Positions 11,364 through 26,512 of a stretch of 64,000 nucleotides of DNA are shown piece by piece (position 1 is the first letter of the stretch; each line of letters starts with the position of its first letter). The notes beneath the pieces are model-generated. The model had not been told where the DNA came from and did not search any database. It saw only the letters and a program-made list of their open reading frames with translations. The translations under genes were made by a program, and so were the position numbers. The DNA is from Solwaraspora sp. WMMD792 (GTDB lineage Bacteria > Actinomycetota > Actinomycetes > Mycobacteriales > Micromonosporaceae). Location of the stretch: positions 5,518,001 through 5,582,000 of the forward strand of contig NZ_JARUBH010000009.1 of the NCBI RefSeq assembly GCF_029626105.1, written 5' to 3'.

Positions 11364-11391
11364 CCATCGACCAATTGATCAAGGGAGAGAA

Positions 11392-11655: not shown

Positions 11656-11700
11656 CCGGCCCCCACCCCCGACACCCACCAAGCCGGGATCACCATGATC

Positions 11701-11753
11701 AGTTGAAGGTGAGATACCTTTCAACCGCCGGGAAAGGTATCCCACCTTCAACT
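11701..11753. terminator. 22-bp near-perfect inverted repeat
   Basis: Arms 11701-11722 and 11732-11753 (core TTGAAGGTGAGATACCTTTC) pair with one mismatch around a 9-base loop. The position, after the small-gene operon and about 80 bp before the phosphodiesterase gene, suits a terminator. The sequence has no T-run, so an operator or remnant of a small mobile element is possible. Confidence 0.45.
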
Positions 11754-11831
11754 CGTCGCCCCGGTGCCGGTCAACCCTGGCGGTGGCGGTGGCGTCGGTG
11801 ATCCACAATGCCGGGAGGAGGAGGGAATCCT

Positions 11832-12917
11832 GTGCCGTCAGCTTCGTACACCTCACTGGCGGACATGCCCGATGTCGTCCTCGCAGAACTGTCCCGGGCA
11901 CGCCATGGGGTGGTCATGCTGGCCGTTGACGGGTTGTCATACGACGCGGCGCTGGCGGCAGGCTGGCAGGCCGCCGAGCTGACCCAACTGGCCAGCACCT
12001 TTCCGAGCACGTCGACAACCGCGTGGCTGACCGCCATGACCGGAGTCGGGCCGGCGCAGCACGGCGTACCCGGGATGGTCTACCGCGTGCCCGGCCGTGG
12101 CTGCCTGGTGTACGCCGTCACCGGCCAGGTGCTGGCGCAGGGACCAGCCGACCCGGGCGGCGACCCCAGACTCGTGATCGAGCACCCGACCATCTTCGAC
12201 CGGGCCGCAGGCGACGGCGTGCAGTGCCGCGCGGTGGCCCGGGAGATCGCCCACCTACCCGGCCCGTGGGCGCAGGCGCTGCTCCGGGGCGCGACCGTCG
12301 TCCCGGCTGCGCCGTCGGAGACGCTCGCCCGGCATGCCCGCGACCCCGCGTTGCTGGTCGACGCCGCGATGAAAGAAGTCGACGAGCAGATCGGCGGGCC
12401 GGCCGGCGACGTGCGGCGGCGGCAACCGACGCTCCTGTGGACCTACGTCAACCTCGACGACTACCTGCACCGCCACGGCTACGACGAACGAGCCGTGGCG
12501 GCCATGGCCGAGCTGGGCAGCCGGGCCGCCCGGTGGGCGCAGGCCGGCTGGACGGTCATCGGCCACTCGGACCACGGCCAGGTCCGGTGCACCCCGGATG
12601 AGGACCTGGTGCGGGCATGGTCTGCTCTGGACGATCCGGCACGGCGGTTGCTCCCGGCCGGCGGGGCGGGCCGGGTCCGGTGGCTGTACCCGGCCCCCGG
12701 CGACGAAGACGAGGCCGGCGGCCGACTCGCTGCGGCACTCGGCTCCTCGGCCCGGATCGTAGCCACCGACGAAGCACTGCGGGACCGGGTAGGCCCGGTG
12801 ATCGCGATCGCCGCAGACGAACGCTTCCCCGTGCCGGACCCCAACCTTAGCTGGGAGCACGGCGCCGACTCTCCCGACGAAACGGTGGTGCCGCTGGCGA
12901 TCTGGCGGGGCCGCTGA
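11832..12917 (+). CDS. Alkaline-phosphatase-superfamily phosphodiesterase (NPP-like)
   Basis: 361 residues, type I phosphodiesterase/nucleotide pyrophosphatase family. The metal-binding Asp is in VVMLAVDGLSYD, the nucleophile Thr is in FPSTSTTAWLTAM, the second metal site is in NLDDYLHRHGYD, and GHSDHGQV supplies Asp-His. All catalytic elements are therefore present. No signal peptide is seen, so it should act in the cytoplasm on a phosphodiester or phosphomonoester. The GTG at 11832 was chosen over the ATG at 11808 because GGAGGAGGAGG precedes it. It is convergent with the MFS gene and lies at the edge of the peptide-modification cluster, where it could hydrolyse a phosphorylated or nucleotidylated intermediate (inference). 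Confidence 0.8.
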   Translation: MPSASYTSLADMPDVVLAELSRARHGVVMLAVDGLSYDAALAAGWQAAELTQLASTFPSTSTTAWLTAMTGVGPAQHGVPGMVYRVPGRGCLVYAVTGQVLAQGPADPGGDPRLVIEHPTIFDRAAGDGVQCRAVAREIAHLPGPWAQALLRGATVVPAAPSETLARHARDPALLVDAAMKEVDEQIGGPAGDVRRRQPTLLWTYVNLDDYLHRHGYDERAVAAMAELGSRAARWAQAGWTVIGHSDHGQVRCTPDEDLVRAWSALDDPARRLLPAGGAGRVRWLYPAPGDEDEAGGRLAAALGSSARIVATDEALRDRVGPVIAIAADERFPVPDPNLSWEHGADSPDETVVPLAIWRGR

Positions 12918-12979
12918 GACTGCCGTGCCGCTAAGACTGCCGGGCCGCCAGGACATGCAGCCCCCAGATAGCAGTGCCG

Positions 12980-14215
12980 CTAGGAGGCGGTGCCGACGGG
13001 CGAGACGTCAGCCGGGCGCTGCGGGCGCGTCTGGGCCCGGAACGGCAACAGCGCGGCCCCCACCAGGATGAAGACTGCGGCGACCACGAAGTAGATCGGC
13101 CGGTAACCTACTGTGCCGACGACCAGGGTGCCGACACCGATGCATACCGCGTACGGCGTATTGATGATCGCCTCAGACGCCACGATCGCGCGGCCCTGCA
13201 GCTCGGCGGAGGTGCGCCGCTGCACCAGGGTCACCTCGGCGACGAGGATCAGCGGCAACCCCAACCCGACCAGGACCGCCCCGGCGGCGACTCCGGTCAG
13301 GGTGGCGGTGCTGGCCGCCGCCAGTCCGACCCCGTTGAGCAGGAAGCCGGCGCAGGCGACGGTGTACTCGCCGTAGCGCCGCATCGCGGGCCCGACCAGG
13401 AGACCGGCGACGACGCTGCCGGCGCCCTGGACGCCACCGAGGATCCCGATGATGGCGGTCGGACGCTGCAGCCCGTCGCTCACGAGGGAGAACAGAGCCA
13501 CGTTGATCATGCCGGCACCGCCGAACGCGACCGCGCTGGCGACGACGATCCGCCGGATGACCGGATGGTGGGCCACGTGCCGGGCCCCGGCGGCGACCTC
13601 GGTCGCGAGCGAGCCCCGCTGCGTGTCGTCGGCCGACCGAACCAGATCCCGAGGCCGGCGCAGCAACACCAGCGACGCGACGGACAGAGCGAACGTCGCG
13701 GCGTCCACCAGGATGACCGCCTCTATACCGCTGGTGGTGTAGAGCGCGGCCCCGACGACCGGCCCGATCACCCGCATCCCCTGACTGAGACTGCTGAGTA
13801 CGCCGTTGGCGTTGCCGAGGCTGTCGTCGGGCAGCATCGAGTGCAGCAGTCCGCCACGGGAGGCCCGGTAGATCTGCCCGGAGCAGCCGTACAGGAAGGT
13901 GACGACGTACACCAGCCACAGGTCGGCCGTGCCGTCCACTGTCAGCAGTGCCAGGATCAGGACCGCCATCGTCCCGTCGTTGACCGTCATCAGCCACCGG
14001 CGCGGCAGCCGGTCCACCAGCAGGCCGGTCAACGGCGACAGCAGTACGGCGATCGCCATGAGCAGGAAGACCAGGCCGGCGGCGCTGGTGGATCCGGTGA
14101 GGTCCTTCATCCAGATCGCCAACACGATGACCATCATCGTGCTACCGAACATGTTGAACGCCTGACCGGCAAGGAGCAGCCGCATGTTGCGGTCACGCAG
14201 GATGACGGGTCGCAT
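12980..14215 (-). CDS. MFS transporter (putative exporter)
   Basis: 411 residues with about 12 hydrophobic helices. The loop after helix 2 (GLLVDRLPRRWLM) is the MFS motif A region. It looks like the drug-exporter-type MFS of the MFS_3 kind. It is the last gene of a minus-strand run (PP-loop, methyltransferase-aminotransferase, M28 peptidase, MFS). Its start overlaps the end of the peptidase gene by 23 bases, and GAGGAG precedes the ATG. Export of the cluster product is the likely role by context. Confidence 0.85.
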   Translation of the reverse strand: MRPVILRDRNMRLLLAGQAFNMFGSTMMVIVLAIWMKDLTGSTSAAGLVFLLMAIAVLLSPLTGLLVDRLPRRWLMTVNDGTMAVLILALLTVDGTADLWLVYVVTFLYGCSGQIYRASRGGLLHSMLPDDSLGNANGVLSSLSQGMRVIGPVVGAALYTTSGIEAVILVDAATFALSVASLVLLRRPRDLVRSADDTQRGSLATEVAAGARHVAHHPVIRRIVVASAVAFGGAGMINVALFSLVSDGLQRPTAIIGILGGVQGAGSVVAGLLVGPAMRRYGEYTVACAGFLLNGVGLAAASTATLTGVAAGAVLVGLGLPLILVAEVTLVQRRTSAELQGRAIVASEAIINTPYAVCIGVGTLVVGTVGYRPIYFVVAAVFILVGAALLPFRAQTRPQRPADVSPVGTAS

Positions 14216-16163
14216 CGATCTCCTCAGCCGCGTCGAGATCCTCAGGATCGGGCACCGGGACGACCCAGCCGGCCCGGTGCAGCATGTCGAAGACCCGGTC
14301 GGCGAACGCCACCGAGATGGGGAGTTCGCCGGCCAGCGCCGCCCACCAGGCCGCGCTGCGGCGGCCACGCCGACCGTCGACAGCTCGCAACAGCGTGAGT
14401 ACGCGGGCGTGGCTGCCGCCCCGATCCTCAGCCAGGCGTTCGGCGAGCCAGGCGCGGTCAGCGTCGGTGGCGGCCAGCGTCCGGGGATTGACCGGGCCGA
14501 GCGCGGCGCGGGCCAGCACCGTACCCGCTGCCTCGTCGTCGGCCGACGGCTCGGCGCACAGCGCGCGGTCGGCAGCGGTGGCGGACACGTCGGCCAGCCA
14601 GCGCGCCGTACGGACGATCTCCCCGGCCGGCACACCGGCGTACGTCAGCGTGCCGACACACCTGCCGACGATCTCGCTGCGGTGGGCCACCCGCCGGACC
14701 AACGCGGCGTCGCTGGCCGGGTCCAACACCGGGCTGCCGTCGTCACGGTACGGGTACGGTGCCGGTGGACGCTGCCGGCCGGGCAGCGCCGCCAGGATGT
14801 GCCCAGCGGCCCAGCCGGCACACGCGTCGGCGACGTCGGCGGCCAACGCCGGGTCCGCGCGTCCGCGTACCGCCGCCACGGTCGACGCCGCCACCGTGAC
14901 GGTGCGACGCAGCTCAGCCGGGTCGACCATGTCGAGCGTGTCGGCCGAGGTGTGGTTGGCCCGGTCCGGCCAGTGCCCGAAGGACACCGTCGGGCACCGG
15001 GTCGGCGCGTCCGAGACGAGCGCGTGGTCGGAACCCCCGGAGAACGGCGCGGTGACCGCCGCCTGCCCCGGATCGCACGGCACCGCGCCGCTGTAGGACC
15101 GGGCCCGTGCCGGCACCAGGTCGGCGCAGCGTCCGGCCAGGGCGGGCAGAAACGACGGTACGTCGTCCGGCCCCCGCTCGATCACCAGCGAGCTGCCGCA
15201 GCGGTACGGGTCCTGCCCGGCCATGTCCACGTTGACCGCCAGGCTGGGCCGCGCCACGGCACCGCCGCCCACGAGATCGTGCAGGTACGCGGCGACACCG
15301 ACGAACTCCGGTGCCCACAGGAAACGCAGATCCGGTCCGCCGGCGGGCCGGGCACCGAGCAGCCGGGCGGTCGCGAGCAGCGCGGCGACGCCGGAGGCGT
15401 TGTCGTTGGCGCTGGGCCGGGGGTGGCAAAGGTGCGCCGAGAGCAGGAACTCGTCGCCGCCGCCGTCGCCCGGCAGCACGCCGGTCACCACCGGCATGGT
15501 GGCCGTCGACCCGGCCACCGCCACATCGACGGTGACCGTCTCGCCCCGGTCGGCGGCCGCGCTGAGCCTGGCGAGTTGCGCGGCGGTGAGGCTGAAGCCG
15601 GCCAACGCCGCACCGGGCAGCAGTTCCAGCCGGCCGACCTGGTCGGCGAGCCGGTCGGTCCGGGCGCTGAGCGGGTCTGCGGCGACCGCGACGGCGCCGC
15701 CGGCCGCCGCCCGCCGGGCGCATTCCGGAAACGGTACGCGGACGTCGTCCAGCAGCACGAGCGCGCCGGTCGCGTCGGCGCCGGCGCACATCGCCGACCA
15801 GCGCAGCAGTGGTACGGCGACGCTGCCGGCGCGAGTCGGTGCCGAGTACGCCGCGAGGGTGTACGGCTGTGCCGGGTAGTCGATCAGCGTCTCGCCGCCG
15901 TGCCGGAGGCTGGCCCGCACCGGTGTCCACGACATCGGGGCCTGGTAGGTCCACCACCGCCGGGCCCCGTCTGCCGGGAACGTGTGCACGGTGACGTCGC
16001 GCAGGCCGGCGTCCACCGCCCGCTGTGCGACGTACCCGGCCGCGGCGTGAATCCCGGCCGAGGCCTGGTAGCGGTCGTGCTGGGCGACCTCGGCGACGTC
16101 GGCCATGGCGGCGTCGACGTCGATGCCGTCGTGCACCGCCGCGACCAGCTGTGACAACCTCAT
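14193..16163 (-). CDS. M28-type zinc aminopeptidase (DUF4910-like)
   Basis: 656 residues. The zinc-ligand pattern of M28 peptidases is visible: SAHLCHPRPSANDNASGVAA near residues 240-256 (His and Asp), WAPEFVG near 285 (Glu), NVDMAG near 310 (Asp) and ANHTSADT near 404 (His). A PA-like insert (ALVLLDDVRVPFPECARRAA) precedes the catalytic part. The C-terminal 200 residues are helical and carry no recognised domain. No signal peptide, so cytoplasmic. It probably trims amino acids from a peptide intermediate or degrades a leader. Its start overlaps the upstream fusion gene stop by four bases. Confidence 0.82.
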   Translation of the reverse strand: MRLSQLVAAVHDGIDVDAAMADVAEVAQHDRYQASAGIHAAAGYVAQRAVDAGLRDVTVHTFPADGARRWWTYQAPMSWTPVRASLRHGGETLIDYPAQPYTLAAYSAPTRAGSVAVPLLRWSAMCAGADATGALVLLDDVRVPFPECARRAAAGGAVAVAADPLSARTDRLADQVGRLELLPGAALAGFSLTAAQLARLSAAADRGETVTVDVAVAGSTATMPVVTGVLPGDGGGDEFLLSAHLCHPRPSANDNASGVAALLATARLLGARPAGGPDLRFLWAPEFVGVAAYLHDLVGGGAVARPSLAVNVDMAGQDPYRCGSSLVIERGPDDVPSFLPALAGRCADLVPARARSYSGAVPCDPGQAAVTAPFSGGSDHALVSDAPTRCPTVSFGHWPDRANHTSADTLDMVDPAELRRTVTVAASTVAAVRGRADPALAADVADACAGWAAGHILAALPGRQRPPAPYPYRDDGSPVLDPASDAALVRRVAHRSEIVGRCVGTLTYAGVPAGEIVRTARWLADVSATAADRALCAEPSADDEAAGTVLARAALGPVNPRTLAATDADRAWLAERLAEDRGGSHARVLTLLRAVDGRRGRRSAAWWAALAGELPISVAFADRVFDMLHRAGWVVPVPDPEDLDAAEEIDATRHPA

Positions 16164-18070
16164 CGGCGGTCCGCCGGGGCAGGTCCGCCGGCGGCGGAGC
16201 CGGCAACGGCGGCTGTCGGGGCTGCGAACGCGGCGGTGAACGCGGCCAGGCGGGCCTCGGACAGCGGAACCGACAGCCGCAGCAGCGCGCCCGGTGGGCC
16301 ACCGGGTGCCAGCGACGGCACCTGCTTGGCGAGCACACCTCGGGCGGCCAGGATCCGGCGTACCTCATCGTCACCGGGCAGGACCAGCCACGGCAGCCGG
16401 GGGTCGGTCGGCAGTGGGGTGAGACCGGCGGCGATCAACTGCTCCTCGACGTACGGCTTCACCTGTGCGATCCGGTCCCGCAGTGCGGCCAGCGGATCTT
16501 GCTGGGTGAGCAGCGCGGCCGCCAGGTCCAGGGCGAGTGCGCTGACCGCCAGCGGTGGCGCCACCTGCCGGACGACGTCGGCCAGGTCCGGGGCGGCGAC
16601 GGCGTACCCGACCCGCAGCCCGCCGGCGCAGAACCCCTTGGACATGCTGCGGATGACGACGGTGCCGGGCAGCTCCTCGGTGAGCGGGGCGGCGCTCTGG
16701 TCGGGCGGCAGGTAGGCACCGAGCGTCTCGTCGACGACCAGCACACTGCCGACCGTGGCGCAGGCCTGCGCGACCCGGCGCAGCTGGTCCCCGGTCCACA
16801 TCGGGCCGAGCAGGCCGGGCCGGTCGACGACGGTCAGCACCGGCCGGTGCTGGGTCACGGCGGCCACCGCGTCCGACGGGTCGCGCAGCGACGTGGCCCG
16901 GACCTGGCCGCCGGTGGCGCCGGGCAACTCCGGATGGCCGGCCACGTCGACCAGGACGGTGCCGCCGTCGCCCAGCCGGGCCAGCGCGTGCAGCAGGCCG
17001 GTGGCACCGGCGCCGGCGGTGACCCGTTCGGGCGGCAGCTGCCGGCCCGGCGGCCAGCGCAGGTACGCGGCGACGATGGGCGCGAGCCGCTGCCCGGCGT
17101 ACGGGTCGGCGAGGTCGTAGCGGCGTGCCCGCTGGATCGCGGCCGGCCCGGCGGGCAGCGCCGCCCACGCCGCGGCCAGCGCGGGTTCGACCGGTCCGGC
17201 CTCGTCGGGGGCGGCGCGCAGGTCAAGCGGCCCTGGGGCATGGCCGTCGCCGGGCAACGGGCCTGGTGGCGCTGGCGCGCGGTGGCCGTCGAGTGCCGAG
17301 GCCACCGTCGGTGCCGGTCTGGCGACGAACTGGACGTAGCGGGTGTCCATGGTCAGCGTGGCACCTGCGGTGAAGTCCGCGTCGGTCCGGGCCACGGCGA
17401 ACCCGGCACGGGTCAGCAGGGTGGCCACCTCGGTCGGGTGATAGAGCCGGACGTCGTCGGGCAGGACGGCGGTGGTGCCGTCCGGTCGGCGGACCTCGAC
17501 CCGGCCGCTGCTGCGTCCGGTGGCCGGGTCGTAGCGGCGCTGGAAGTGGAACGCGGTGCCGCCGATGTCCGCGCGGGCCTCGTCGCGGTAGTGCCGGGCG
17601 ATGGCGAGCACATTGGAGTGATCGAGGATGAGCAGACCGTCGGCGGGCAGCAGGCGGCGCACCGCGCGCAGCAGCCGGAGCTGGTCGGCGTCGGTTCCCC
17701 AGCCGAACGCCTGTACGCAGATGGCCGCGTCGACGTCGGGCAGCCCCCACCCGGGTGGCTGCGCGCCGAGCAGGTCCACCCGACGCAGGTCGAGGGTGAC
17801 ACCGGCGGCGTCGGCGGCGCTCGCGGCCCGCCGCAGCGCGTACCCGGACACGTCCACCCCGATGACGTCGAAGCCCTTGCGGGCCAGACCGACGGCGTGC
17901 CGGCCGACCCCGCAGCCCAGGTCGACCACCCGCCGGCCGGGGGCGTGGGTGGCCAGGACGTCCGCCAGGTAGGCGACCTCGGCGGCGGTGCGTTCGGCCG
18001 TGTACTCGTCGTCGGCGAACGTCCAGTAGTCGGCCGTGAAGTAGCACTCGTACCACGGGGTCGGCGGCAT
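16160..18070 (-). CDS. SAM methyltransferase - PLP aminotransferase fusion
   Basis: 636 residues. Residues 1-230 are a class I methyltransferase: motif I is VVDLGCGVGRHAVGLARKGF near 45-65, with GVDVSGYAL after it. Residues 270-600 are a fold-type I PLP enzyme of the HisC/aminotransferase I-II type: GAGATGLLHAL binds the cofactor phosphate, VVDETLGAYLP gives the Asp, and SMSKGFCAGGLRVGY near 474-488 has the Schiff-base Lys. The linker is Ala/Pro-rich. Together they could transaminate or decarboxylate an amino-acid unit and methylate it. ATG at 18070 follows the PP-loop stop by five bases. The fusion is uncommon and marks a specialised pathway. Confidence 0.82.
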   Translation of the reverse strand: MPPTPWYECYFTADYWTFADDEYTAERTAAEVAYLADVLATHAPGRRVVDLGCGVGRHAVGLARKGFDVIGVDVSGYALRRAASAADAAGVTLDLRRVDLLGAQPPGWGLPDVDAAICVQAFGWGTDADQLRLLRAVRRLLPADGLLILDHSNVLAIARHYRDEARADIGGTAFHFQRRYDPATGRSSGRVEVRRPDGTTAVLPDDVRLYHPTEVATLLTRAGFAVARTDADFTAGATLTMDTRYVQFVARPAPTVASALDGHRAPAPPGPLPGDGHAPGPLDLRAAPDEAGPVEPALAAAWAALPAGPAAIQRARRYDLADPYAGQRLAPIVAAYLRWPPGRQLPPERVTAGAGATGLLHALARLGDGGTVLVDVAGHPELPGATGGQVRATSLRDPSDAVAAVTQHRPVLTVVDRPGLLGPMWTGDQLRRVAQACATVGSVLVVDETLGAYLPPDQSAAPLTEELPGTVVIRSMSKGFCAGGLRVGYAVAAPDLADVVRQVAPPLAVSALALDLAAALLTQQDPLAALRDRIAQVKPYVEEQLIAAGLTPLPTDPRLPWLVLPGDDEVRRILAARGVLAKQVPSLAPGGPPGALLRLSVPLSEARLAAFTAAFAAPTAAVAGSAAGGPAPADRR

Positions 18071-18075
18071 GCTGG

Positions 18076-19290
18076 TCAGGACACGGTGGTGAGTTCGCGA
18101 CGGGCGAAGAAGTCGCAGACGTCGCAGAGGTCCGGTGCGTTGGCGACACCTTCCTGCTGCAGGTAGACCCCGCCGCAGACGCGGCAGGTCGCCTCCATGA
18201 AGGGGAACATGTAGCGCTGCATGTTCTCGAACGCGGAGAACATGTAGTAGTCGATGCCCGGCCACAGGTCGAGCAGATGGTCGGTCATTCCGTACGCCAG
18301 GGACCGCTCGTCGGGCCCGGTGGTGAACCGCCCCGGGGTGCCCTGTCGGTTCAGTTCCGGCGCGACCAGCTCCAGGTAGAGCGTCAGTTCCTTCTTGGTG
18401 ATCCGGTACAGCGGGAAGATGTACCGCAGGCCGCCGATCTGCCGGGTCGGGATGCCACCCATCCGGAATCCGCTGGTCATCCAGGTGACCATGCTGGCCA
18501 GCAGGTCGTCGGCGTTGAAGCCGAACGCCACCACCCCGGCGCCACGCGCGTGTGCCTCCTCCTCCAGCATCCGCCGCAGCACCTGGTGGCCGATGACCAT
18601 CGTCAGGTGGCTGCCCTCGTCGCTGACGATCTCGTTCATCGAGTCGACGAACGTGCCGCGTAGCCGGAACACCCGCTCCACGTCAGCCGCGGTGACGATG
18701 ACCTGCTCGATTCCGAGCCGTTCGCCGGAGGCACGGGCGGCCGCGAACGTCGCCGGCTCCTCCCAGTCGGGCAGGCCGGTGATGGTCACGGCCGTCATGT
18801 TCAGTGGCGGCAGCCGGTCCCTGGTCCGCTCCAGCAGGGTCAGGTAGGCGACGCTGTCCCGCCCGCCGGACAGCCCGACGATCACGTGGTCGCCGTCGCG
18901 CATCACCTCCCGGGACAGGACACTGTCGACGAACGCTTCTTCGACGTACTGGATGAAGGCGGGAGCGTCGAACTGCTCGCCCCGGACCTCGATGGCGCCC
19001 TTGTCGTCGAAAACGATGCTCTTGGTGTAAACCGGGTTGGGTACACCGTAGACCTGCCGTTTCGGGCGGCGCATCACATTCAGATCGTAATGCCGGACCT
19101 GCCGGACTTCGATGATGTCGTCGGCGCCGACAACCGTGGTGTCCTCCGACACCACCTGCCCATCGCGCCAGCTCAACACGGAGTTGACCGGGATGCCGTT
19201 GCGGCGTAACACGTCGACCAGAGGCTGCCCCGCCGTCGCAGCCAATTCCTCGGTCGTGCCGACCTTCGTGTGGTAATAGACTGACGCCAT
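18076..19290 (-). CDS. PP-loop (TtcA-like) ATPase with N-terminal beta-grasp domain
   Basis: 404 residues. Residues 1-70 resemble a ThiS/MoaD-like beta-grasp fold (LVDVLRRNGIPVNSVLSWRDG, then VVGADDIIEVRQVRHYD) but lack a terminal Gly-Gly. The PP-loop GLSGGRDSVAYL lies near 135-146, with GFNADDLLAS later as in TtcA/CtuA tRNA thiolases. The C-terminus has CRVCGG and CDVC, a four-Cys zinc or Fe-S site. Such enzymes adenylate a carbonyl or base and insert sulphur; relatives form thioamides in closthioamide and 6-thioguanine in natural-product pathways. Here it may thiolate a peptide or nucleotide intermediate. A TATGGT box six to seven bases before the ATG suggests a leaderless transcript. Confidence 0.8.
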   Translation of the reverse strand: MASVYYHTKVGTTEELAATAGQPLVDVLRRNGIPVNSVLSWRDGQVVSEDTTVVGADDIIEVRQVRHYDLNVMRRPKRQVYGVPNPVYTKSIVFDDKGAIEVRGEQFDAPAFIQYVEEAFVDSVLSREVMRDGDHVIVGLSGGRDSVAYLTLLERTRDRLPPLNMTAVTITGLPDWEEPATFAAARASGERLGIEQVIVTAADVERVFRLRGTFVDSMNEIVSDEGSHLTMVIGHQVLRRMLEEEAHARGAGVVAFGFNADDLLASMVTWMTSGFRMGGIPTRQIGGLRYIFPLYRITKKELTLYLELVAPELNRQGTPGRFTTGPDERSLAYGMTDHLLDLWPGIDYYMFSAFENMQRYMFPFMEATCRVCGGVYLQQEGVANAPDLCDVCDFFARRELTTVS

Positions 19291-19333
19291 TGTGCAACCA
19301 TAGATGCCCGCCGGTGTCCGGTACAGTGCGATG
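19291..19333. promoter_or_regulatory. Compact divergent promoter region, possibly leaderless both ways
   Basis: Only about 40 bp separate the PP-loop gene (minus) from the first FemAB-like gene (plus). On the minus strand TATGGT ends six bases before the ATG. On the plus strand TACAGT at 19322-19327 ends a few bases before ATGATG. No Shine-Dalgarno is seen for either. Two -10-like boxes this close to the starts fit leaderless mRNAs. No good -35 boxes were found. Confidence 0.35.
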
Positions 19334-20353
19334 ATGATCCGCTCCATCGTCGTCGAGCACTACGACGACCCCCGGGCGGCGTCACGGGCCGGGTGGGATG
19401 CGGTCGCCGGCAACGGTGACACACCGGTCTTCTATCAGGACGGCTACCTGTCGGCGTACCACGATGCGCCGCTCGCGCCGCTGGAGCGGCTCGGATACCT
19501 GGTGGCACGGGAACCGGCGGGACGGCCCGTGGCCGTCCTGCCGGTCGCGCTGCACCGGTTCGCCGACCCGATCGGCGGGCTCCGCCGCCTGCATCCCGGT
19601 ATCGAGCGGGACAGCGCGCTGCTCAGCCACGTCTGGCACTGCTACGACACCCAACTGCTCGGCGCGGTCACCCGCACCGACGTGGTCACCGAACTGCTGG
19701 ACACCCTGCGCCGGCTCGCCGACGACTGGGGGGCCCGCTGGTACGGGTTGGTCAATGTGGACTCGTCAGGCCCGACGGCGACCGCGCTCACCGCCGCCGG
19801 GCTGACCGGGCGGCACCTGGTGGACCGCTACTCCACCGACCTGACCGGCCTCACCTCGTACGAGGACTACCTTGCCCGACTGGCTCCCCGGCCCCGGGCC
19901 AACCTGCGCCGCAACGAGCGCCGGGCGGCGGACGCCGGTTTCGTCTGCGATGTGACCACACCGGACGGTGCGGACCTGGTCGAGATCGCCGAGCTGTGCG
20001 ACCGGACCGCCGCCCGCTTCGGCAACGCCGGTTTCTACCCAACCGAGACGTTCACCCGGTTCGTCACCGCCCTCGGCCCGGCCGCGCACGTGCTCCGCAT
20101 CCGCCAACGGGGCACGCTGGTCGCGGCCGGGGTGTGCCTGACCGACCAGTGCCGCTTCCACACCTGGACCTGCGGTGTCGAATACCGTGTCGACGGCAAC
20201 GCCAGCCCGTACGCGGCGCTGTTCACCGAGTCGGTCCGGCTGGCGCTGCGGCTGGGCCGCCCGATCCTGGAGGGCGGGCGCAGCAACGACGTGTTCAAGC
20301 GTCGGCACGGGCTGACCGCCCGCCGGCTCGACGCCTACGTGATGCGACTGTGA
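19331..20353 (+). CDS. FemAB/GNAT-like acyl or aminoacyl transferase 1
   Basis: 340 residues of the FemAB_like (peptidogalycan biosynthesis) / GNAT group. Typical segments are FYQDGYLSAY near the N-terminus, RPRANLRRNERRAADAGF (basic substrate helix), VLRIRQRGTLVAAGVCL and the terminal EGGRSNDVFKRRHGL near 315-330. Family members move aminoacyl or acyl groups onto amines, some from aminoacyl-tRNA. No signal peptide. It forms a two-gene plus-strand operon with the next transferase, which starts four bases before its stop. ATG at 19331; ATG at 19334 is equally possible. Donor and acceptor are unknown. Confidence 0.75.
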   Translation: MMIRSIVVEHYDDPRAASRAGWDAVAGNGDTPVFYQDGYLSAYHDAPLAPLERLGYLVAREPAGRPVAVLPVALHRFADPIGGLRRLHPGIERDSALLSHVWHCYDTQLLGAVTRTDVVTELLDTLRRLADDWGARWYGLVNVDSSGPTATALTAAGLTGRHLVDRYSTDLTGLTSYEDYLARLAPRPRANLRRNERRAADAGFVCDVTTPDGADLVEIAELCDRTAARFGNAGFYPTETFTRFVTALGPAAHVLRIRQRGTLVAAGVCLTDQCRFHTWTCGVEYRVDGNASPYAALFTESVRLALRLGRPILEGGRSNDVFKRRHGLTARRLDAYVMRL

Positions 20354-21507
20354 GCTACCGGCTGCGCGTGCATCCGGGCATCGCCCCGCAGTGGGAGCGG
20401 CTGGCCGCCGGCGGGCCGATGCTGACCACACCGGGCTGGCTGCGCGCGATGGCGGGCCGGCTCGGCGGGCGTACGCTCACCTTCGTCGTCGAACAGGGCG
20501 GCGCGGCATGCCTGGCCCTGCACGCCACCGTGCAGCCCGTCCCCCGCCCCGGTGAAGTGTTCGACCTGCACCACGTCCTGGTCAGTGAGGCTCCCGCGCT
20601 GCCGCTGACCGACGCGTCACGGGCCGCGCGAGCCGAGTTGTCGAGGCGGGCCGCACCCGAGCCGTCCCGCTGGACACCGAACCTGCTGGTGATGCTGCCC
20701 GGCTACGAATGCCTTCCCGTCGGGCCGGCGGCGACCAGCCCGGCCGCGCTCGCGGTCGCCGTCGACGGCATCCTGGACTGGGCCGCGGACGCCGGCATCG
20801 CGACGGTGGCGTTCCTCTACACCAGGCCGGAGGCGACAGCCCTGACCGGTGCCCTGTCCGCAGCCGGGTTCGTGGCGATGCCACTGTCACTGACCTGGGA
20901 GCTTCCGGTACCCAGCGGCGGGTTCGACGCCTATCTGGCGTCGCTGCCCCGCAAACGGGCAGCGGAAGCAGGGCGTGAGCTGGCCCGGCTCACCGCCAAC
21001 GGCGTACGGCTGCGTCATCTGCCCGCCGATGCGATCCCCCCGGTCGTGCCGGCGCTGGCCCGGCTACGCGGCCAGTTGGTCAGCAAGTACCGGGGCGGCT
21101 GTGACGAGGTGGCCGAGCGCGGCCGGCTGGAGTCGCTGCTGCACGACGTCGCCGACGGCCGCGCCCAGGTGGTCCTCGCCGACGCCGGGGACGCCGTCGT
21201 CGGGTTCGCGCTGTTCGCGCCGTTCGGTGACGAGTGGCAGTGCCTGGCCCTCGGCTACGACTACACCGACCGCCGGTCGCGGTTCGCGTACTTCGGCACG
21301 GCGTTCTACGCGGCGGTCCCCATCGCCTCGGCACAGGGCGCCCGCCGGATCGGCTACGGACAGGGCGCGGCGCGGGCCAAACAGGACCGGGGATGCGTCG
21401 GTACGCCGCTGACGGCCTGGCTGCACTCGACCGATCCTGAGCTGATGGCCACGGCGCGGGCCGCCGCATCGGCGACCGCCCTGATCCCTGGACAGCGAAC
21501 GTCCTGA
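20350..21507 (+). CDS. FemAB/GNAT-like acyl or aminoacyl transferase 2
   Basis: 385 residues with the same double-GNAT layout as its upstream neighbour but low identity to it. Recognisable parts are FDAYLASLPRKRAAEAGREL (the K-R rich helix before the second lobe), QVVLADAGDAVVGFALFAPF and GARRIGYGQGAARAKQDRG near the C-terminus. GTG start overlaps the upstream stop (GTGA), so translation is coupled. It converges on the NDK-like gene, whose stop lies 14 bp away. Likely works with transferase 1 on the same substrate. Confidence 0.72.
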   Translation: MSYRLRVHPGIAPQWERLAAGGPMLTTPGWLRAMAGRLGGRTLTFVVEQGGAACLALHATVQPVPRPGEVFDLHHVLVSEAPALPLTDASRAARAELSRRAAPEPSRWTPNLLVMLPGYECLPVGPAATSPAALAVAVDGILDWAADAGIATVAFLYTRPEATALTGALSAAGFVAMPLSLTWELPVPSGGFDAYLASLPRKRAAEAGRELARLTANGVRLRHLPADAIPPVVPALARLRGQLVSKYRGGCDEVAERGRLESLLHDVADGRAQVVLADAGDAVVGFALFAPFGDEWQCLALGYDYTDRRSRFAYFGTAFYAAVPIASAQGARRIGYGQGAARAKQDRGCVGTPLTAWLHSTDPELMATARAAASATALIPGQRTS

Positions 21508-21521
21508 TCCCGGCGTCGGCG

Positions 21522-22412
21522 TCACCGGCGCGGCGCAAACCGCCGTGAGGTGGCGAGCACCAGGCGTTCCCACGGGTCGAGCCGGGCGCCGTGGACCGCG
21601 AGGAGGTCCTGCACCCGGGCCGGGTCGGGTCCTGGCCGGTCGGGGGTGAACTCGGCGGCCAGGATCGGCGCGAGTGGATGCCCGCCGGCCAGCAGCCCGG
21701 CGGCCTTCTCGCCGGCTCCGGCGGCGGCGAGACCGCTGAGGTCACCAGCCAGCAGGTCGGCCGCGCTGCGGCGGGCGGAATCGGACAGCTCCGGCCAGGC
21801 CAGGGCGAGGACCCGGGCGCGCAGACCGGCCAGGACCTGCGGATATCCCCGGCGCTCGGCGGGAGCGCTCCGGCTGAGCAGATCGAGCAGGGTACGCAGG
21901 TCGGCCGGGTCGCCGCCGTCGTACCCCCCGGGCCCGTCGCCGGCTCCGCCGTCGAACCCGCCGTCGGTGAAGACCGCGCTCTCCCGCTGGGAGTCGGCAG
22001 GGGTGTCGGAGCTGTGCATCAGGGCCAGCATGACGTTGATGGAGCCGAGGTCGGCACGGATCGTGCCAGCGCTCGCGTCAGCGGGGTCGCTCGCCCCTTT
22101 GGCCAGGCGCAGCCGTGCATGGCTGGGGTGTCGCGGATCGGGCCGGACGTCGCGGACCAGAAGCGCCACCGTCGGGCCGAAGTCGAAGAGCTGGTCGACG
22201 AGACGGTAGAGGTACGCCTTCCACACCTGGGTGATGTTGCGTTCGTGGAACGCGTCCAGGTTGGCCGGCCGGTGCCACAGCACCCGCCACGCCACCGGTT
22301 GGAACCCCTGGGCGACCACCCGGTCCACGATCTGCCCGCCGAGGTGGCGGGCGAGGGCATCGGGGGCGAGCAGCATGAAGACCGTACGCTCCCAGTCGAC
22401 TGCTTCACTCAC
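21522..22412 (-). CDS. Nucleoside-diphosphate-kinase-like protein with C-terminal extension
   Basis: 296 residues; NDK family members have about 140. The NDK pattern is clear: RTVFMLLAPDALARHLGG (Kpn-loop region), GPTVALLV, GASDPADASAGTIRADLG (Arg of the active site), then NVMLALMHSSDTPADSQRE with the catalytic His near residue 132 and the conserved Glu. The Lys of the usual KPD is Ala, and there is an extra four-residue step before the His. Residues 150-296 are Gly- then Leu/Ala-rich and unrecognised. It may transfer phosphate to an unusual acceptor rather than a nucleoside diphosphate. GAAGGAG precedes the GTG start. It is the last visible gene of the 25.5 kb minus-strand operon. Confidence 0.75.
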   Translation of the reverse strand: MSEAVDWERTVFMLLAPDALARHLGGQIVDRVVAQGFQPVAWRVLWHRPANLDAFHERNITQVWKAYLYRLVDQLFDFGPTVALLVRDVRPDPRHPSHARLRLAKGASDPADASAGTIRADLGSINVMLALMHSSDTPADSQRESAVFTDGGFDGGAGDGPGGYDGGDPADLRTLLDLLSRSAPAERRGYPQVLAGLRARVLALAWPELSDSARRSAADLLAGDLSGLAAAGAGEKAAGLLAGGHPLAPILAAEFTPDRPGPDPARVQDLLAVHGARLDPWERLVLATSRRFAPRR

Positions 22413-22491
22413 GCGGAGGCTCCTTCGCGGCGGTGTGGTGCCGGGTGCGGCCCCGGACCTGCCGGTTGCCGCACCCGTCGTCTGTTTCAGG

Positions 22492-22548
22492 TCACCGCTT
22501 CTTCTTTTTCACGACCGGGCGCCGTGTGTGGACAGCTTGGCGGTTCAT
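22492..22548 (-). CDS. Tiny Lys/Arg-rich peptide 2 (18 residues)
   Basis: ATG at 22548 is preceded by AAGGAGG at ideal spacing. The frame reads MNRQAVHTRRPVVKKKKR and stops. It resembles the peptide at 22630-22695: both begin MNR, both have RRPxVKKK, 10 of 18 aligned residues are identical. Conserved sequence plus a near-perfect ribosome binding site argue for a real gene. It has no hydrophobic stretch. It could be a substrate scaffold or a minimal RiPP precursor for the enzymes encoded around it. Confidence 0.65.
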   Translation of the reverse strand: MNRQAVHTRRPVVKKKKR

Positions 22549-22629
22549 CCTGGCCTCCTTCCCGGGTGAGCGCCGGGTGATCCGTCGGTTGGCGGATCAG
22601 CGAGCGGGTGTGCGGCCGGCAAGGGATGG

Positions 22630-22695
22630 TCACTTGCGGGTGGTCGTCTTCTTCTTCACCCGCGGCCTGCGGCCGAACTTCATGTTCCGGTTCAC
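22630..22695 (-). CDS. Tiny Lys/Arg-rich peptide 1 (21 residues)
   Basis: GTG at 22695 lies six bases after GGGAGG. The frame encodes 21 residues: MNRNMKFGRRPRVKKK followed by three Thr, Arg, Lys and a TGA. Eleven of 21 residues are Lys or Arg or lie in the shared MNR / RRPxVKKK pattern with the second tiny peptide. It sits between the M16 peptidase and that second peptide in the same operon. An internal ATG (MKFGRR) is the alternative start. Function unknown; the doubled tiny genes look like paired peptide substrates. Confidence 0.62.
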   Translation of the reverse strand: MNRNMKFGRRPRVKKKTTTRK

Positions 22696-22749
22696 CCTTT
22701 CCCTCCCTTCAATCGGTAGGTGGTCTGCCGGGTGGGCCGCTGCGGGCTT

Positions 22750-24024
22750 TTACCCGCCAGCGGTCGCCACCACCAGTTGGTCCGCCATGGACACGGCGGC
22801 GTCGTGGACCTGCTGTGGGGTGGCAGCCGCGATCCGGTCGGCGTATTCGGCCACCGACCAGTCGACGCTGCCGCCCAGCAGAGCGTGCCGGCCCAGCAGG
22901 AGAGTCTCGTCGAGGGAAGTCTCGGCATCGAGTCGGACCAGCCCGGCAGCGCGTCGTCGGGCCACAGCCACGCGGGCGTCGCTCCAGCCGTCCGCCACCG
23001 CTGACCGTACGAGGTCGGCGGCGAGCCGGGCCACCTCGTCACGGTGCTCGACGGCGGTGGTGATCGCGATCCGCCAGACGCCGGTGTCGTGGTAACCGCT
23101 GAGGTCGCCCCAGATGTCGTAGGACAGCCCCAGATTGGTACGCAGTTGCTCGACGAGGACGGACGTGTTGCCCCCGGCGAACAGTTCCATCACCACCTCG
23201 GCGGCGGCGAGCCGCGGGTCGGCCAACGAAAACGCGGGTCCGCCGAGCACCACGGCCGCGGTGTCGCCGGGCAGCGGATGATCCAGCCGCCGGGACCGTA
23301 CGCCGGGAGCCATTGCCGGCAACGGGCTGGGGAGCGGGGACGGCTCGGCCGCGGGCCGGTCGGCGCGGGCGCTCTGGTGCGTTATGGACAGGCCGGCGAG
23401 GGCGCTTCGCGCCATCGCAGCGGTCACGGCGGCGGGGGTGACGCCGCCGGTGACCACGACGGCGACTCGTCCGGCCCGGACGTGGCGGCGGGACCAGGCG
23501 GTGACCTCGGCGGCGGTGAGCCGGAGCGCGTCGGCGGGGCTGCCGCCGACCGGCCGGCCCATCGGGTGGTCGCCGTACACGGCGGCGAAGAACACGTCGT
23601 GGACGATGTCTGTGGGGTCGGCTTCAGCCAGGCGCAGCTCCTCGATGACCACCCGACGTTCGGCCTCGACGAGGACCGGGTCGAACTCGGTGGCTGTCGC
23701 GGCCTCGGCGAGCAGGTCCAGTACGGCCAGCGCGTCCGCTGTCGGTACCCGCGCGTACAGGACGACGTAGTCGCGGGCGGTGGTCGCGTTGCCCTCGCCA
23801 CCGTACGACTCGATTTCGTCGATGACCCGCATCTTCCGGCCGGGCGGCACCGCCTGCATGACCAGGTGTTCGAACAGGTGGGCGGTGCCAGGTGAGGTTT
23901 CGTCGCGGGATCCGGCGAGGATCCACACCGACACGGTGGTGATCTCGGCACCCGGCCGGTGACGGGTCAGCACCCGGATGTCGTCGTCCAACGCCCGCCC
24001 GACGATCTCGGCGGCGGCGGTCAC
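22750..24024 (-). CDS. M16B-family zinc metallopeptidase
   Basis: 424 residues in two homologous halves. The inverted zinc motif HLFEH lies near residues 49-53 (AHLFEHLVM), and the downstream Glu is in ERRVVIEELRLAE near 125-135, so the catalytic half is complete. The C-terminal half has the usual non-catalytic R/Y region (LRTNLGLSYDIWGDLSGY). M16B peptidases occur in several peptide-natural-product clusters, where they process precursor peptides. The GTG start overlaps the nucleotidyltransferase-like gene stop (GTGA). Likely cleaves one or more of the small peptides encoded in this operon. Confidence 0.88.
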   Translation of the reverse strand: MTAAAEIVGRALDDDIRVLTRHRPGAEITTVSVWILAGSRDETSPGTAHLFEHLVMQAVPPGRKMRVIDEIESYGGEGNATTARDYVVLYARVPTADALAVLDLLAEAATATEFDPVLVEAERRVVIEELRLAEADPTDIVHDVFFAAVYGDHPMGRPVGGSPADALRLTAAEVTAWSRRHVRAGRVAVVVTGGVTPAAVTAAMARSALAGLSITHQSARADRPAAEPSPLPSPLPAMAPGVRSRRLDHPLPGDTAAVVLGGPAFSLADPRLAAAEVVMELFAGGNTSVLVEQLRTNLGLSYDIWGDLSGYHDTGVWRIAITTAVEHRDEVARLAADLVRSAVADGWSDARVAVARRRAAGLVRLDAETSLDETLLLGRHALLGGSVDWSVAEYADRIAAATPQQVHDAAVSMADQLVVATAGG

Positions 24025-25205
24025 GGGTTCGCTCCGGTGGTCGCCGGACTGGGCACCGGGCCGGACAGTTCCGCCACGGTGTCTTCGTCGACCTCGTCGC
24101 CGATCGTCAACAGGAACCTGCCGACCGGAGTGTCCACCCAGGCCAGCCGATCGCGCTCGTGCAGTGTGGCGGTGGGGGCGTCACCTCGCGGGGCACCGTC
24201 CAGTGGCAGGCCGAAGGCCAGCACCCCGGCCCGGACGGACGCACCGGCGGAGAGCCGCTCGGCGGCCGCCGCCCAGGACCGCTGTTCGATCCGGGCGGAG
24301 GCACCTTTGATGTTGCGACGCTGCAGGTGGCGAGCCATGCCGGTGAGGGGACGGCGCAGCACGGCAGCACTGCGGATCACCCGACGGGCGCGGGTGTCCA
24401 ACTGGTTTCGTCGAGGTGGTGGTGGCAGCGGCGGAAGGCTTGTCCGCGCGACGAGCGCGGCGAGTTCGGCGTACTCCGGCCACAACCCGAGTGCGGTCAG
24501 TGCCCGGGTGAGTGTGATCAGCTCGTCCTCGGAGGCCGAGGCCACCAGGAGGCTGGCGTCGATCAGATCCCGGGCCCGGAAGCGTTGCTCGAAGCGCTCG
24601 AACAGGAGCATCAGGGTGTTCTTCACCGCCGGTGCCCGCCACGGTTGCGGCATGGCGGTCAGCGGTGGCACACCGGCCAGGTCACCCAGCGACCACCAGG
24701 TGGCGATCTCCACCCCGTACGGCAGGACGAAGCGGGATTCGTGCGGACGTCGCAGACTCACCATCATGTGGAGACGATCGCCGAAACAGGCGAACGTGCC
24801 GGTGTGCAGGTCCCAGCCATCGTCGATGAGCAGACCTGCCGCTCGCCACAGAGCGGCTTCGGTGCCGGCGACGTAGTCGAGATCGTTCATGGTGCGACCA
24901 AGACCAGCCGGGTAGCGGTCGGCTACCTCCAGCCCTTTGATCGGGGTCAAATCGCTGACGCGTGCGGCGAGCTCGGCCGCCACGGTGCGGTAGAACGTGA
25001 CCCGCGAGGTGGCCAACTCGAGATCGTAGGCAATCCCCGGGTCGAGGGTGACGCCATCCGCAGCCCACGCGGAGTACAGGGTGGCGGTCAGGGACGGCTG
25101 TCCTTGGCGCAGTGCCGCGACCGCCTCGGCCGGATCCTCGAGCTGCTCACCGCAACAGACGCTCAACGCACTAAGGACATCGTCCGCCGACAATTGGAAG
25201 GTCAC
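24021..25205 (-). CDS. Nucleotidyltransferase-fold protein (NTP_transf_5-like)
   Basis: 394 residues. Near residues 100-110 TMNDLDYVAG has the paired Asp of the pol-beta nucleotidyltransferase fold, and LTPIKGLEVADRYP precedes it, as in proteins of the NTP_transf_5 group that accompany lasso and other RiPP clusters. A third acidic position may be PYGVEIATWW. The C-terminal 130 residues contain a small beta domain (GVLAFGLPLDG; AWVDTPVGRFLLTIGDE) that looks like a PqqD/HPr-kinase-type accessory, but this is uncertain. GAGGAG lies eight bases before the GTG start. It could adenylylate, phosphorylate or bind the 49-residue peptide encoded just upstream. Confidence 0.68.
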   Translation of the reverse strand: MTFQLSADDVLSALSVCCGEQLEDPAEAVAALRQGQPSLTATLYSAWAADGVTLDPGIAYDLELATSRVTFYRTVAAELAARVSDLTPIKGLEVADRYPAGLGRTMNDLDYVAGTEAALWRAAGLLIDDGWDLHTGTFACFGDRLHMMVSLRRPHESRFVLPYGVEIATWWSLGDLAGVPPLTAMPQPWRAPAVKNTLMLLFERFEQRFRARDLIDASLLVASASEDELITLTRALTALGLWPEYAELAALVARTSLPPLPPPPRRNQLDTRARRVIRSAAVLRRPLTGMARHLQRRNIKGASARIEQRSWAAAAERLSAGASVRAGVLAFGLPLDGAPRGDAPTATLHERDRLAWVDTPVGRFLLTIGDEVDEDTVAELSGPVPSPATTGANP

Positions 25206-25282
25206 GGCACGGTGCTCCTCGCGGGCTCGGCGACGCCGGCGTTCGCACCGCGCGGCGACGCCGAGCGCCCGACGGCGGTGCG

Positions 25283-25432
25283 CTAGTAGTTGGGCAGGCA
25301 GTCCGTGCAGGTGGTACGGAACTTGACCACCTGGACCGCCTGGCGACGCGCGAGCATCTTCTCGACCCGGCTCGGAGTGAGCAGCGTGGGCGCGACAACC
25401 GTGTCTTTCCTGACGCTAGTGGAATTCTTCAC
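25283..25432 (-). CDS. Candidate precursor peptide with C-terminal Cys-x-x-Cys tail
   Basis: 49 residues from GTG 25432 (AAGGGG upstream). The first 30 residues are polar and Val/Thr-rich, then a helix SRVEKMLARRQAVQVVKF, then RTTCTDCLPNY at the end with Cys 42 and Cys 45. The shape, a leader-like first part and a short Cys-containing tail, is that of a RiPP precursor. It is the first gene after a good promoter and directly precedes a nucleotidyltransferase-fold gene and a peptidase. The tail could be the modified core, or a metal site. The neighbouring ATG five bases upstream runs straight into a stop, so GTG is used. Confidence 0.62.
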   Translation of the reverse strand: MKNSTSVRKDTVVAPTLLTPSRVEKMLARRQAVQVVKFRTTCTDCLPNY

Positions 25433-25472
25433 TTCATCCCCTTGCTAGGAAAAGTGGTGGCGTATTCAGCTG

Positions 25473-25501
25473 ATCGTACGGATCTCGCCACACGCAGTCA
25501 A
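25473..25501 (-). promoter_or_regulatory. Sigma-70-like promoter of the peptide operon
   Basis: On the minus strand TTGACT (25496-25501) and TACGAT (25473-25478) are separated by 17 bases, close to consensus and rare in this GC-rich DNA. The box ends about 40 bp before the 49-residue peptide gene. The local sequence is AT-richer than the coding regions. It should drive the run from 25432 down to 21522. Confidence 0.65.
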
Positions 25502-25623
25502 TGCATAGATCTCAATCGCCAGCCAGGGATAGGGAATCGATCAGCACCAAACTAGTGAATGCCGGATAAAAGCTGGGAGTCACCCAAAACCGACCAATCA
25601 CCGCCACCTAGGACGGAGTCCTC

Positions 25624-25688
25624 AAGATCAGTTGATGAGAATTCGGGCGACACGCCGACGCCAGCCCGAATTTTCGTCAAGTGATCTT
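25624..25688 (-). terminator. Hairpin after the SUKH immunity gene
   Basis: Arms 25624-25648 and 25664-25688 pair with three mismatches in 25 (core GAATTCGGGC / GCCCGAATT). The hairpin starts at the stop codon of the SUKH gene. It should end transcription of the toxin/immunity array before the promoter of the peptide operon. Confidence 0.6.
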
Positions 25689-26488: not shown

Positions 26489-26512
26489 AATCCTGTCCTT
26501 CCCGTCGAGAAC

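Follow-up and report, generated by a model that had tools for sequence, protein, structure and literature searches.

A gene cluster of Solwaraspora sp. WMMD792 with short peptide genes and a beta-grasp/PP-loop protein: a candidate for peptide-directed biosynthesis

Introduction

What might peptidases, transferases, phosphate-handling enzymes and three very short open reading frames (ORFs) be making together? The question is raised by a locus of Solwaraspora sp. WMMD792 (NCBI RefSeq assembly GCF_029626105.1, contig NZ_JARUBH010000009.1, positions 5,518,001 to 5,582,000). This whole stretch of 64,000 nucleotides, hereafter the window, harbours at positions 11808-25432 ten enzyme or transporter genes and three short peptide genes, all with open ORFs. 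The same genes had been listed in an initial annotation made from the sequence alone, and ORF and Pfam analyses found them all in place; its overall interpretation, a peptide-based biosynthetic cluster outside the known classes of ribosomally synthesized and post-translationally modified peptides (RiPPs), is partly supported. Our reading, to which we give a probability of roughly 0.42, is a ribosomal-peptide-directed pathway to a small amino-acid-like product, in which the peptide PepA would be a scaffold with a one-residue core activated by the protein PPl. The analysis establishes the gene content, the conservation and variation of the peptides, the co-occurrence of the genes, and the active-site residues kept or lost.

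PepA and the partner peptides of PPl

The two genes central to this reading are:
25283..25432, minus strand: pepA, a 49-amino-acid peptide ending KFRTTCTDCLPNY (ORF; 18/18 window-type loci; pN/pS)
18076..19290, minus strand: PPl, a beta-grasp-like domain and an NcsA/TtuA-like PP-loop ATPase in one chain (profile, model, alignment)

The start of PPl was placed at 19290, as in most relatives; a longer start is absent from most of them. After removal of copies and weak matches, all 37 PPl loci kept were found to contain a short peptide gene in the PPl cluster, within ~7 kb of PPl and, in the 19 loci that are not of the window type, directly upstream of it. The carriers include actinomycetes as well as plasmids of Geobacillus, Xenorhabdus, Pantoea and Paenarthrobacter. 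Eighteen loci are of the window type (the window, L006, L007, L010-L019, L033, L060-L063); the others are L028, L034, L035, L065, L066, L008, L030, L029, L009, L031, L036-L038 and L067-L072. Removed were copies with the same PPl genes (L001-L005, L020-L027, L032, L042-L059, L064) and three weak matches of the phylum search (L039-L041, the same as L073-L075; 36-45 bits), and the count leaves out five plasmid matches (H4-H7, H9). The locus counts given here are not independent, because L012 and L019, and likewise the window, L006 and L007, are close relatives.

In the window-type loci, pepA is present in 18/18, at most ~7 kb from PPl, and its segment KFRTTCTDCxPN is nearly invariant. Its last residue is Tyr in 15 of the 18, Phe in L033, Leu in L018 and Met in L062. 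Over 15 loci (the near copies L006, L007 and L019 left out), the 13 codons preceding the last one show a proportion of nonsynonymous differences (pN) of 0.054 and of synonymous differences (pS) of 0.392, while the last codon, with a pN of 0.36 and a pS of 0.105, is the freest position of the peptide. The gene is under purifying selection, and the cluster is more than a chance assembly, because pN lies so far below pS in pepA and distant genera have kept the gene set. The C-terminal residue, checked as a trait of the Pearlin type (see below), is the variable position of PepA.

A conserved short protein could also be a reusable carrier. LysW, an amino-group carrier protein, belongs to a system that uses an ATP-grasp ligase; by analogy, a metabolite would be loaded on the C-terminus of PepA, modified and removed, and the peptide recycled. 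The combination with an activating enzyme, a pyridoxal phosphate (PLP) enzyme, a kinase-like enzyme and an M28 protein parallels such a carrier pathway. However, it would be odd for a fixed attachment point to be Y, F, L or M next to a segment that is all but invariant, and Pfam and NCBIfam scans of the ten cluster proteins revealed no ATP-grasp ligase, which makes a recycled carrier unlikely.

A conserved segment followed by a varying last residue is found in three peptide groups (xPNY/F/L/M; RASR/K and TSW; TAHL/Y/F, CAHL and TAQV). PepA-related peptides of five divergent loci end RFRTCCADPRASR/K (L034, L035, L065, L066) or RFRTCATDPITSW (L028), and the peptides of L008 (an actinomycete) and L030 (a Pantoea plasmid) have VPASKxGxExIxGASCETGAQ in common. 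Nine loci with a histidyl-tRNA synthetase (HisRS) paralogue share G[MI]DRMT and a SALTAHx-like end with the Paenarthrobacter peptide, and L009 and L029 each have a peptide of their own kind. None of five peptides scanned matched an NCBIfam family (0 families, 5/5). An automatic test found an ORF of 40-75 amino acids, preceded by a Shine-Dalgarno (SD) pattern and ending at most 250 bases upstream, at 15 of the 19 non-window-type PPl genes; in L029, L038, L068 and L072 the peptide is present and was missed by the test, probably through the SD pattern. Such an upstream ORF, of unrelated sequence, was also seen at two of the three weak-background loci (400-base limit).

Fold of PPl and its lost cysteines

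Both profile and model assign PPl to the PP-loop ATPase fold. Positions 109-396 of the PPl profile align with NcsA (E 7e-19), and the model (mean pLDDT 76, pTM 0.80) matches TtuA/NcsA, then TilS and NAD synthetase; in Pfam, PPl has a PP-loop match under cut-off, and its match to Asn_synthase reached 12.8 bits, below the cut-off of 21. The first 65 profile positions gave weak ThiS/SAMP2-like matches (E 0.0096 and 0.13), and the carrier-like domain continues into the PP-loop part with no Gly-Gly end. The regions equivalent to CSFC and CPYSC of NcsA (6scy alignment), whose cysteines we take to be Fe-S ligands, are devoid of cysteine in PPl. No cysteine is invariant or nearly so across the 11 aligned PPl proteins, and all nine window-type PPl proteins in the alignment retain a C-terminal CxxC pair.

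These features bear on whether PPl is a true sulphur transferase that forms a C-terminal thiocarboxylate or thioamide on PepA. Its closest solved relatives, NcsA and TtuA, the ThiS/SAMP2-like start and the CxxC pair would favour such a function, but the cysteine-free regions, the lack of any nearly invariant cysteine and the missing Gly-Gly end render it improbable. The first two of these make sulphur transfer along the known route unlikely, and it is safer to infer adenylation as the activity of PPl. What stands of the "sulphur-transfer" label of the initial annotation is the fold; the thiolation step that it had proposed is not supported, given the missing Fe-S cysteines, and was rejected as the main reading.

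Distribution and core gene set

Three further genes regularly accompany pepA and PPl:
16160..18070, minus strand: MT-AT, a fusion of an S-adenosylmethionine (SAM) methyltransferase and a CobD/HisC-like PLP enzyme (Pfam, NCBIfam)
14193..16163, minus strand: M28/DUF4910 metallo-aminopeptidase-like protein (Pfam; conserved His/Asp/Glu set)
11808..12917, plus strand: type I phosphodiesterase/nucleotide pyrophosphatase-like hydrolase (Pfam; conserved Asp/His set)

Among 300 genomes of the window's family, the PPl query matched five. Besides the window's own genome, these are two congeneric genomes, at 97 and 99% identity, and two that are distant, at 25%; the four further same-genus genomes listed gave no PPl match. 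Ten more PPl proteins (54-78%), from several actinomycete genera, came from a pattern-based scan that covered one genome per species and detects close relatives only. The PPl profile (E 1e-8) matched 8/394 genomes of the class, 5/396 of the phylum (three being weak background) and 21/250 of the family of genome G604. PPl is also encoded on pGS18 of Geobacillus stearothermophilus, with 35% identity along 98% of the query, and on plasmids of Xenorhabdus nematophila, Pantoea agglomerans and Paenarthrobacter ureafaciens.

The phosphodiesterase, MT-AT and M28 genes accompany pepA and PPl in 16 of the 18 window-type loci; L011 is cut by the contig end within MT-AT. The phosphodiesterase, M28 and a CobD-like enzyme are also encoded in L008, L030, L034, L035 and L066; the last locus contains the phosphodiesterase gene only partly and has the CobD-like enzyme fused with a methyltransferase, whereas in the other four it stands alone. 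A nucleotidyltransferase-fold protein (NTP5) is encoded in 18/18 window-type loci, and the M16 peptidase, the closer form of the nucleoside diphosphate kinase (NDK)-like protein and the transferase Fem2 are an extension of the core set. In one family, MT-AT was matched (E up to 1e-25) in 11/250 genomes, each time on the PPl contig and within ~10 kb, and in none of the 229 genomes of that family without PPl. The conserved co-occurrence of the PP-loop, MT-AT and NDK-like proteins with a short peptide, by which the initial annotation was to be judged, is thus observed.

Several loci show arrangements of their own. Nine clusters (L036-L038, L067-L072) share the order SALTAHx-type peptide, PPl and, behind PPl, the HisRS paralogue, which was assigned by Pfam in the three tested and by similarity to that of L037 in the remainder. 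L030, on the Pantoea agglomerans plasmid (8576-22250), contains genes for a peptide, PPl, a phosphodiesterase, a PLP enzyme, a DUF4910 protein, an amidase, an FAD/NAD protein and a nucleotidyltransferase-family protein. In L009 (9592-16012), the peptide and PPl are found with genes of 2-oxoglutarate-Fe(II) oxygenase, M28, creatininase-family and carbon-nitrogen hydrolase type, which recalls mycofactocin-type release. On the Paenarthrobacter plasmid (L031, 5551-8709), a GMDRMT-type peptide lies upstream of PPl, followed by TauD-like and cytochrome P450-like genes.

Arrays of pepB mini-genes

The two smallest peptide genes lie beside the M16 gene:
22750..24024, minus strand: M16 (insulinase-type) peptidase (Pfam; HxxEH kept)
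22630..22695, minus strand: pepB1, 21 amino acids, MNR-NMKFG-RRP-RVKKKTTTRK (SD-like stretch; the L006 and L007 versions have one extra Thr)
22492..22548, minus strand: pepB2, 18 amino acids, MNR-QAVHT-RRP-VVKKKKR (SD-like stretch; identical in L006 and L007)

Of the three small peptides of the initial annotation, these two have turned out to be members of a tandem-array family. The gap between the M16 and NDK-like genes holds pepB mini-genes in 13/13 loci with M16, from 2 copies in the window through 3 in L010, 6 in L012 and 8 in L060 to 10 in L062, 54 in total. All follow one plan: M[D/N/E]R, a variable X5 (twice six residues), RRP (once LRP, once KRP) and a K/R-rich tail. An array is present in 0/11 comparison loci without M16 (L011, L016, L017, L018, L033, L034, L035, L065, L066, L008, L030; Fisher p 4e-7 from the hand-assembled counts 13, 0, 0 and 11, relatedness being ignored), and 13 further loci without M16 (L009, L028, L029, L031, L036-L038, L067-L072) have none. 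The five window-type loci among the former (L011, L016, L017, L018, L033) have no RRP-type pepB, and L011, with no M16 match, contains two basic mini-ORFs without RRP.

The distance from start to start, measured in three arrays, is mostly 59-63 bases (exceptions 53, 65 and 97), and L061 and L063 each have one extra off-pattern mini-ORF inside the array. Five variable residues are found in 42 of the 44 distinct peptides, with 39 distinct X5 sequences, and pN of X5 is about equal to pS in all five arrays with at least three usable members (0.50-0.70 vs 0.47-0.66): X5 is hypervariable. Because the search pattern for this set prescribed M[DNE]R and RP (14 of 68 rows discarded as chance matches), the low pN of the flanks is in part an outcome of how the members were chosen; this does not affect the X5 result, the K/R-rich tails or the spacing. 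Nardilysin, an M16 peptidase, reportedly cleaves before Arg at dibasic sites (PMC4820967), so cleavage before RRP by the M16 protein, which retains HxxEH, is a natural inference.

Such tiny, very basic ORFs could instead be regulatory leader peptides, chance ORFs or a toxin-antitoxin element, all apart from the chemistry, and DNA of high G+C content (0.61-0.77 per 2 kb in the window) is rich in spurious ORFs (169 of at least 40 amino acids in 20 kb). Conservation largely refutes this explanation: pepA is present in every window-type locus and under purifying selection, while pepB genes form head-to-tail arrays of mostly uniform spacing and nearly constant X5 length. Moreover, among nine proteins searched with PADLOC only MT-AT matched, with two methyltransferase models (the MADS model at 60 bits, a distant relative), on which ground a defence system was rejected as well. 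A role of the short ORFs outside the chemistry is thus highly improbable.

Remaining enzymes and gene organization

The remaining features of the cluster are:
25473..25501, minus strand: sigma-70-like promoter match 5' of pepA (9/12 positions; pattern only)
24021..25205, minus strand: NTP5, NTP_transf_5-like nucleotidyltransferase-fold protein (Pfam just under cut-off; Asp-x-Asp; model match)
21522..22412, minus strand: NDK-like protein, His kept, canonical Lys replaced by Ala (Pfam; alignment)
20350..21507, plus strand: Fem2, weakly FemAB-like transferase (Pfam E 0.0024, under cut-off)
19334..20353, plus strand: Fem1, GNAT/FemAB-like transferase (Pfam; W, N, F and K at DhpH-C places)
12980..14215, minus strand: major facilitator superfamily (MFS) transporter, proposed exporter (Pfam, NCBIfam)

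Fem1 retains the W, N and K of DhpH-C in 18/18 and the F in 12/18 proteins, the window's included, at nearly the spacing of Trp284, Asn325, Phe328 and Lys329, which are reported as functional residues of the aminoacyl-tRNA transferase DhpH-C (PMC12945691). This suggests that Fem1 is a DhpH-C-like candidate aminoacyl-tRNA transferase, and agrees with the FemAB-type extension step of the initial annotation. Phosphorylation by the NDK-like protein, also part of that proposal, is uncertain: the His is kept in 16/16, but the Lys is replaced in 13/16, the window included, and kept in L016, L033 and L008. We take these to be the catalytic His and active-site Lys of canonical NDK. NTP5 scores 30.2 bits against the NTP_transf_5 cut-off of 31.2; its Asp-x-Asp is invariant in 14/14 aligned proteins, and the best PDB match of its model is a nucleotidyltransferase (E 6e-4, TM 0.26/0.38). 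This motif and the PLP lysine are near-invariant in the aligned loci, as are the sets of conserved residues in the phosphodiesterase, M28 and M16 proteins; all are presumably functional residues. The nearest solved relative of M28 is 2ek8.

Overlapping starts and one strong promoter had also been noted. Gene ends do overlap at NTP5/M16, MT-AT/M28, M28/MFS and Fem1/Fem2, and one sigma-70-like match was found (25501-25473, minus strand; a mean of 0.1 in shuffled sequence), the promoter being a pattern match only. An Rfam scan of 11000-26600 matched no structured RNA.

Next to pepA lies a gene with DUF6406 and SMI1/KNR4 (SUKH-1) domains (25688-26488, minus strand), the latter presumably of the immunity-protein type; L006 and L007 have the same neighbour. 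Directly beyond it, a single ORF of 5439 amino acids with repeated segments (26513-42832, minus strand) possibly encodes a large polymorphic-toxin-like protein. On the other side of the cluster, a DUF5615/PIN-like gene and a DUF433 ORF (9002-9379 and 9376-9993, both minus strand) form a probable toxin-antitoxin pair.

Proposed pathway

We infer every reaction, substrate and product of the following scheme. PepA would be the scaffold or precursor, with KFRTTCTDCxPN as the recognition part and the last residue (Tyr, Phe, Leu or Met) as the building block. Using ATP, PPl would convert the C-terminal carboxylate of PepA to an adenylate that could be coupled to a small nucleophile. The resulting group, probably phosphoryl- or nucleotidyl-bearing, would be tailored by the CobD-like PLP/methyltransferase enzyme and the phosphodiesterase; such an intermediate is suggested because NDK, the phosphodiesterase and the CobD/HisC-like PLP enzyme are phosphate-handling folds. 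M28 would trim the product free, in one other cluster perhaps together with a creatininase-family enzyme, Fem1 and Fem2 may extend the product by one or two amino acids taken from aminoacyl-tRNA, and its export would fall to the MFS protein. Where M16 is present, pepB peptides (M[D/N]R-X5-RRP) would be cut before the Arg pair, and the variable octapeptides may be carriers for the product or second products.

Several observations weigh against this scheme. PPl could act on tRNA or on a free metabolite, and without its Lys the NDK-like protein may be inactive as a kinase. M28 enzymes are usually aminopeptidases, and the scheme does not account for the release of one C-terminal residue from a 49-mer. 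The upstream-ORF control also detected a short ORF at 21 of 135 other cluster genes; in 10 cases this ORF was pepA itself. L018 encodes PepA and PPl, and its 17-kb contig has no match to MT-AT, M28 or phosphodiesterase. By the queries used, the window has little beyond peptide and PPl in common with L065, the clusters that contain a HisRS paralogue and the plasmids of Geobacillus, Xenorhabdus and Paenarthrobacter (the Geobacillus cluster has an additional methyltransferase domain), so the chemistry of PPl need not be the same everywhere. Finally, full-length NDK-like orthologues (E <1e-40) occur in 12/250 genomes, nine at PPl clusters and three (L076-L078) without PPl, where they lie beside relatives of Fem1 and Fem2 and no short peptide was recognised by the scans. 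Since these three proteins occur together without PPl in three genomes, the set is modular rather than strictly obligate.

Comparison with known systems

Pfam and NCBIfam scans of the ten cluster proteins revealed no LanB/C/M, YcaO, radical SAM enzyme or lasso cyclase, in agreement with the absence of RiPP hallmarks noted initially. The Pfam families reached are general ones, and no NCBIfam match attained its cut-off (for MT-AT, among the best 25 of 73). Nor was a description of this gene set found in the open-licence literature (titles and abstract openings; few subscription papers covered). A pathway already known and left unrecognised, e.g. one published in a subscription journal, is favoured by the open-licence scope of that search and opposed by the two negative results; we consider it slightly less likely again than a recycled carrier. 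The peptide-scaffold principle is already known, and the search suggests that no description exists of the activating enzyme, of the five-gene core or of the mini-gene arrays.

No account of these enzymes as one set was found in that search, which suggests that small molecules are built on ribosome-made peptides in a way that has so far gone unrecognised. If this is true, PP-loop ATPases, whose known roles lie in tRNA thiolation and amide chemistry, would also activate peptide C-termini; the genomes of at least three phyla (Actinomycetota, Bacillota, Pseudomonadota) could be mined simply by means of the short-peptide/PP-loop pair; and tandem arrays of mini-genes for 16-20 amino acids with a hypervariable core of nearly fixed length would amount to a natural peptide library of an unusual kind. 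Gene callers may overlook peptides of both kinds because of their small size. It is somewhat doubtful whether the locus represents a new class of peptide-directed biosynthesis, defined by a beta-grasp/PP-loop enzyme and a single-last-residue core, the largest form of which would be joined to a genome-encoded combinatorial library of M[D/N]R-X5 octapeptides, released at dibasic sites by M16 and serving as built-in delivery peptides that carry or accompany the amino-acid product.

Modules related to the phosphate-handling enzymes appear in phosphoenolpyruvate (PEP) mutase clusters: relatives of the NDK-like protein, Fem1 and Fem2 (L076-L078) and of PPl, M28, the aminotransferase and the phosphodiesterase (L008) lie in or beside them. 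L076 and L077 also hold genes for PEP mutase, a phosphonopyruvate-decarboxylase-like protein and an iron alcohol dehydrogenase and are candidate phosphonopeptide clusters; in the genome of L078, the PEP mutase match lies on another contig (C148 vs C149, adjacent by number). TIGR02320 (E 1e-20) matched 6/20 genomes searched, none over the family cut-off, including two of 16 window-type and related PPl carriers, where the match lies elsewhere (G399, 308.9 bits, C17; G1130, 107.7 bits, C14). In the window's genome and the two same-genus carriers (G000, G093, G114) it had no match, and a phosphonate pathway, considered because of L008 and L076-L078, was rejected for the window.

In mycofactocin and pyrroloquinoline quinone (PQQ) biosynthesis, the product is derived from C-terminal residues of a ribosomal peptide, with an M16 peptidase in the case of PQQ and a creatininase-type enzyme in that of mycofactocin. 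The very short C-terminal core proposed here would be similar, and counterparts exist in the M16 protein and, in L009, the creatininase-type enzyme, but no radical SAM enzyme or PqqD-like protein is found among the ten proteins scanned. The methyltransferase domain of MT-AT is a distant relative of the daptide methyltransferase (47.4 bits, far below the cut-off of 175), while the other daptide enzymes were absent from the Pfam and NCBIfam scans of the ten proteins. FVG (gvg) clusters likewise contain small ORFs; the accessible part of their description names no PP-loop protein, and they are a lead.

The NcsA/TtuA thiolases act with SAMP2/TtuB-type carriers and have the fold of PPl, whose N-terminal domain is weakly carrier-like; PPl differs in that this domain is fused into one chain, the Fe-S cysteines are lost and the gene is clustered with a short peptide gene. 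Among the GNAT-fold aminoacyl-tRNA transferases (DhpH-C, DhpK, VlmA, PacB), DhpH-C shares its W, N, F, K set with Fem1, which is FemAB-like by Pfam and, unlike these enzymes, encoded with scaffold-like peptides. The closest likeness to the role proposed for PepA is offered by the Pearlins (ammosamides, 3-thiaglutamate), in which a short ribosomal peptide is reported to be the scaffold for C-terminal chemistry (PMC12945691; PMC12424672). The Pearlins, however, depend on a LanB-like peptide aminoacyl-tRNA ligase (PEARL), of which there is none among the ten cluster proteins, whereas in the present clusters it is a beta-grasp/PP-loop protein that constantly accompanies the peptide.

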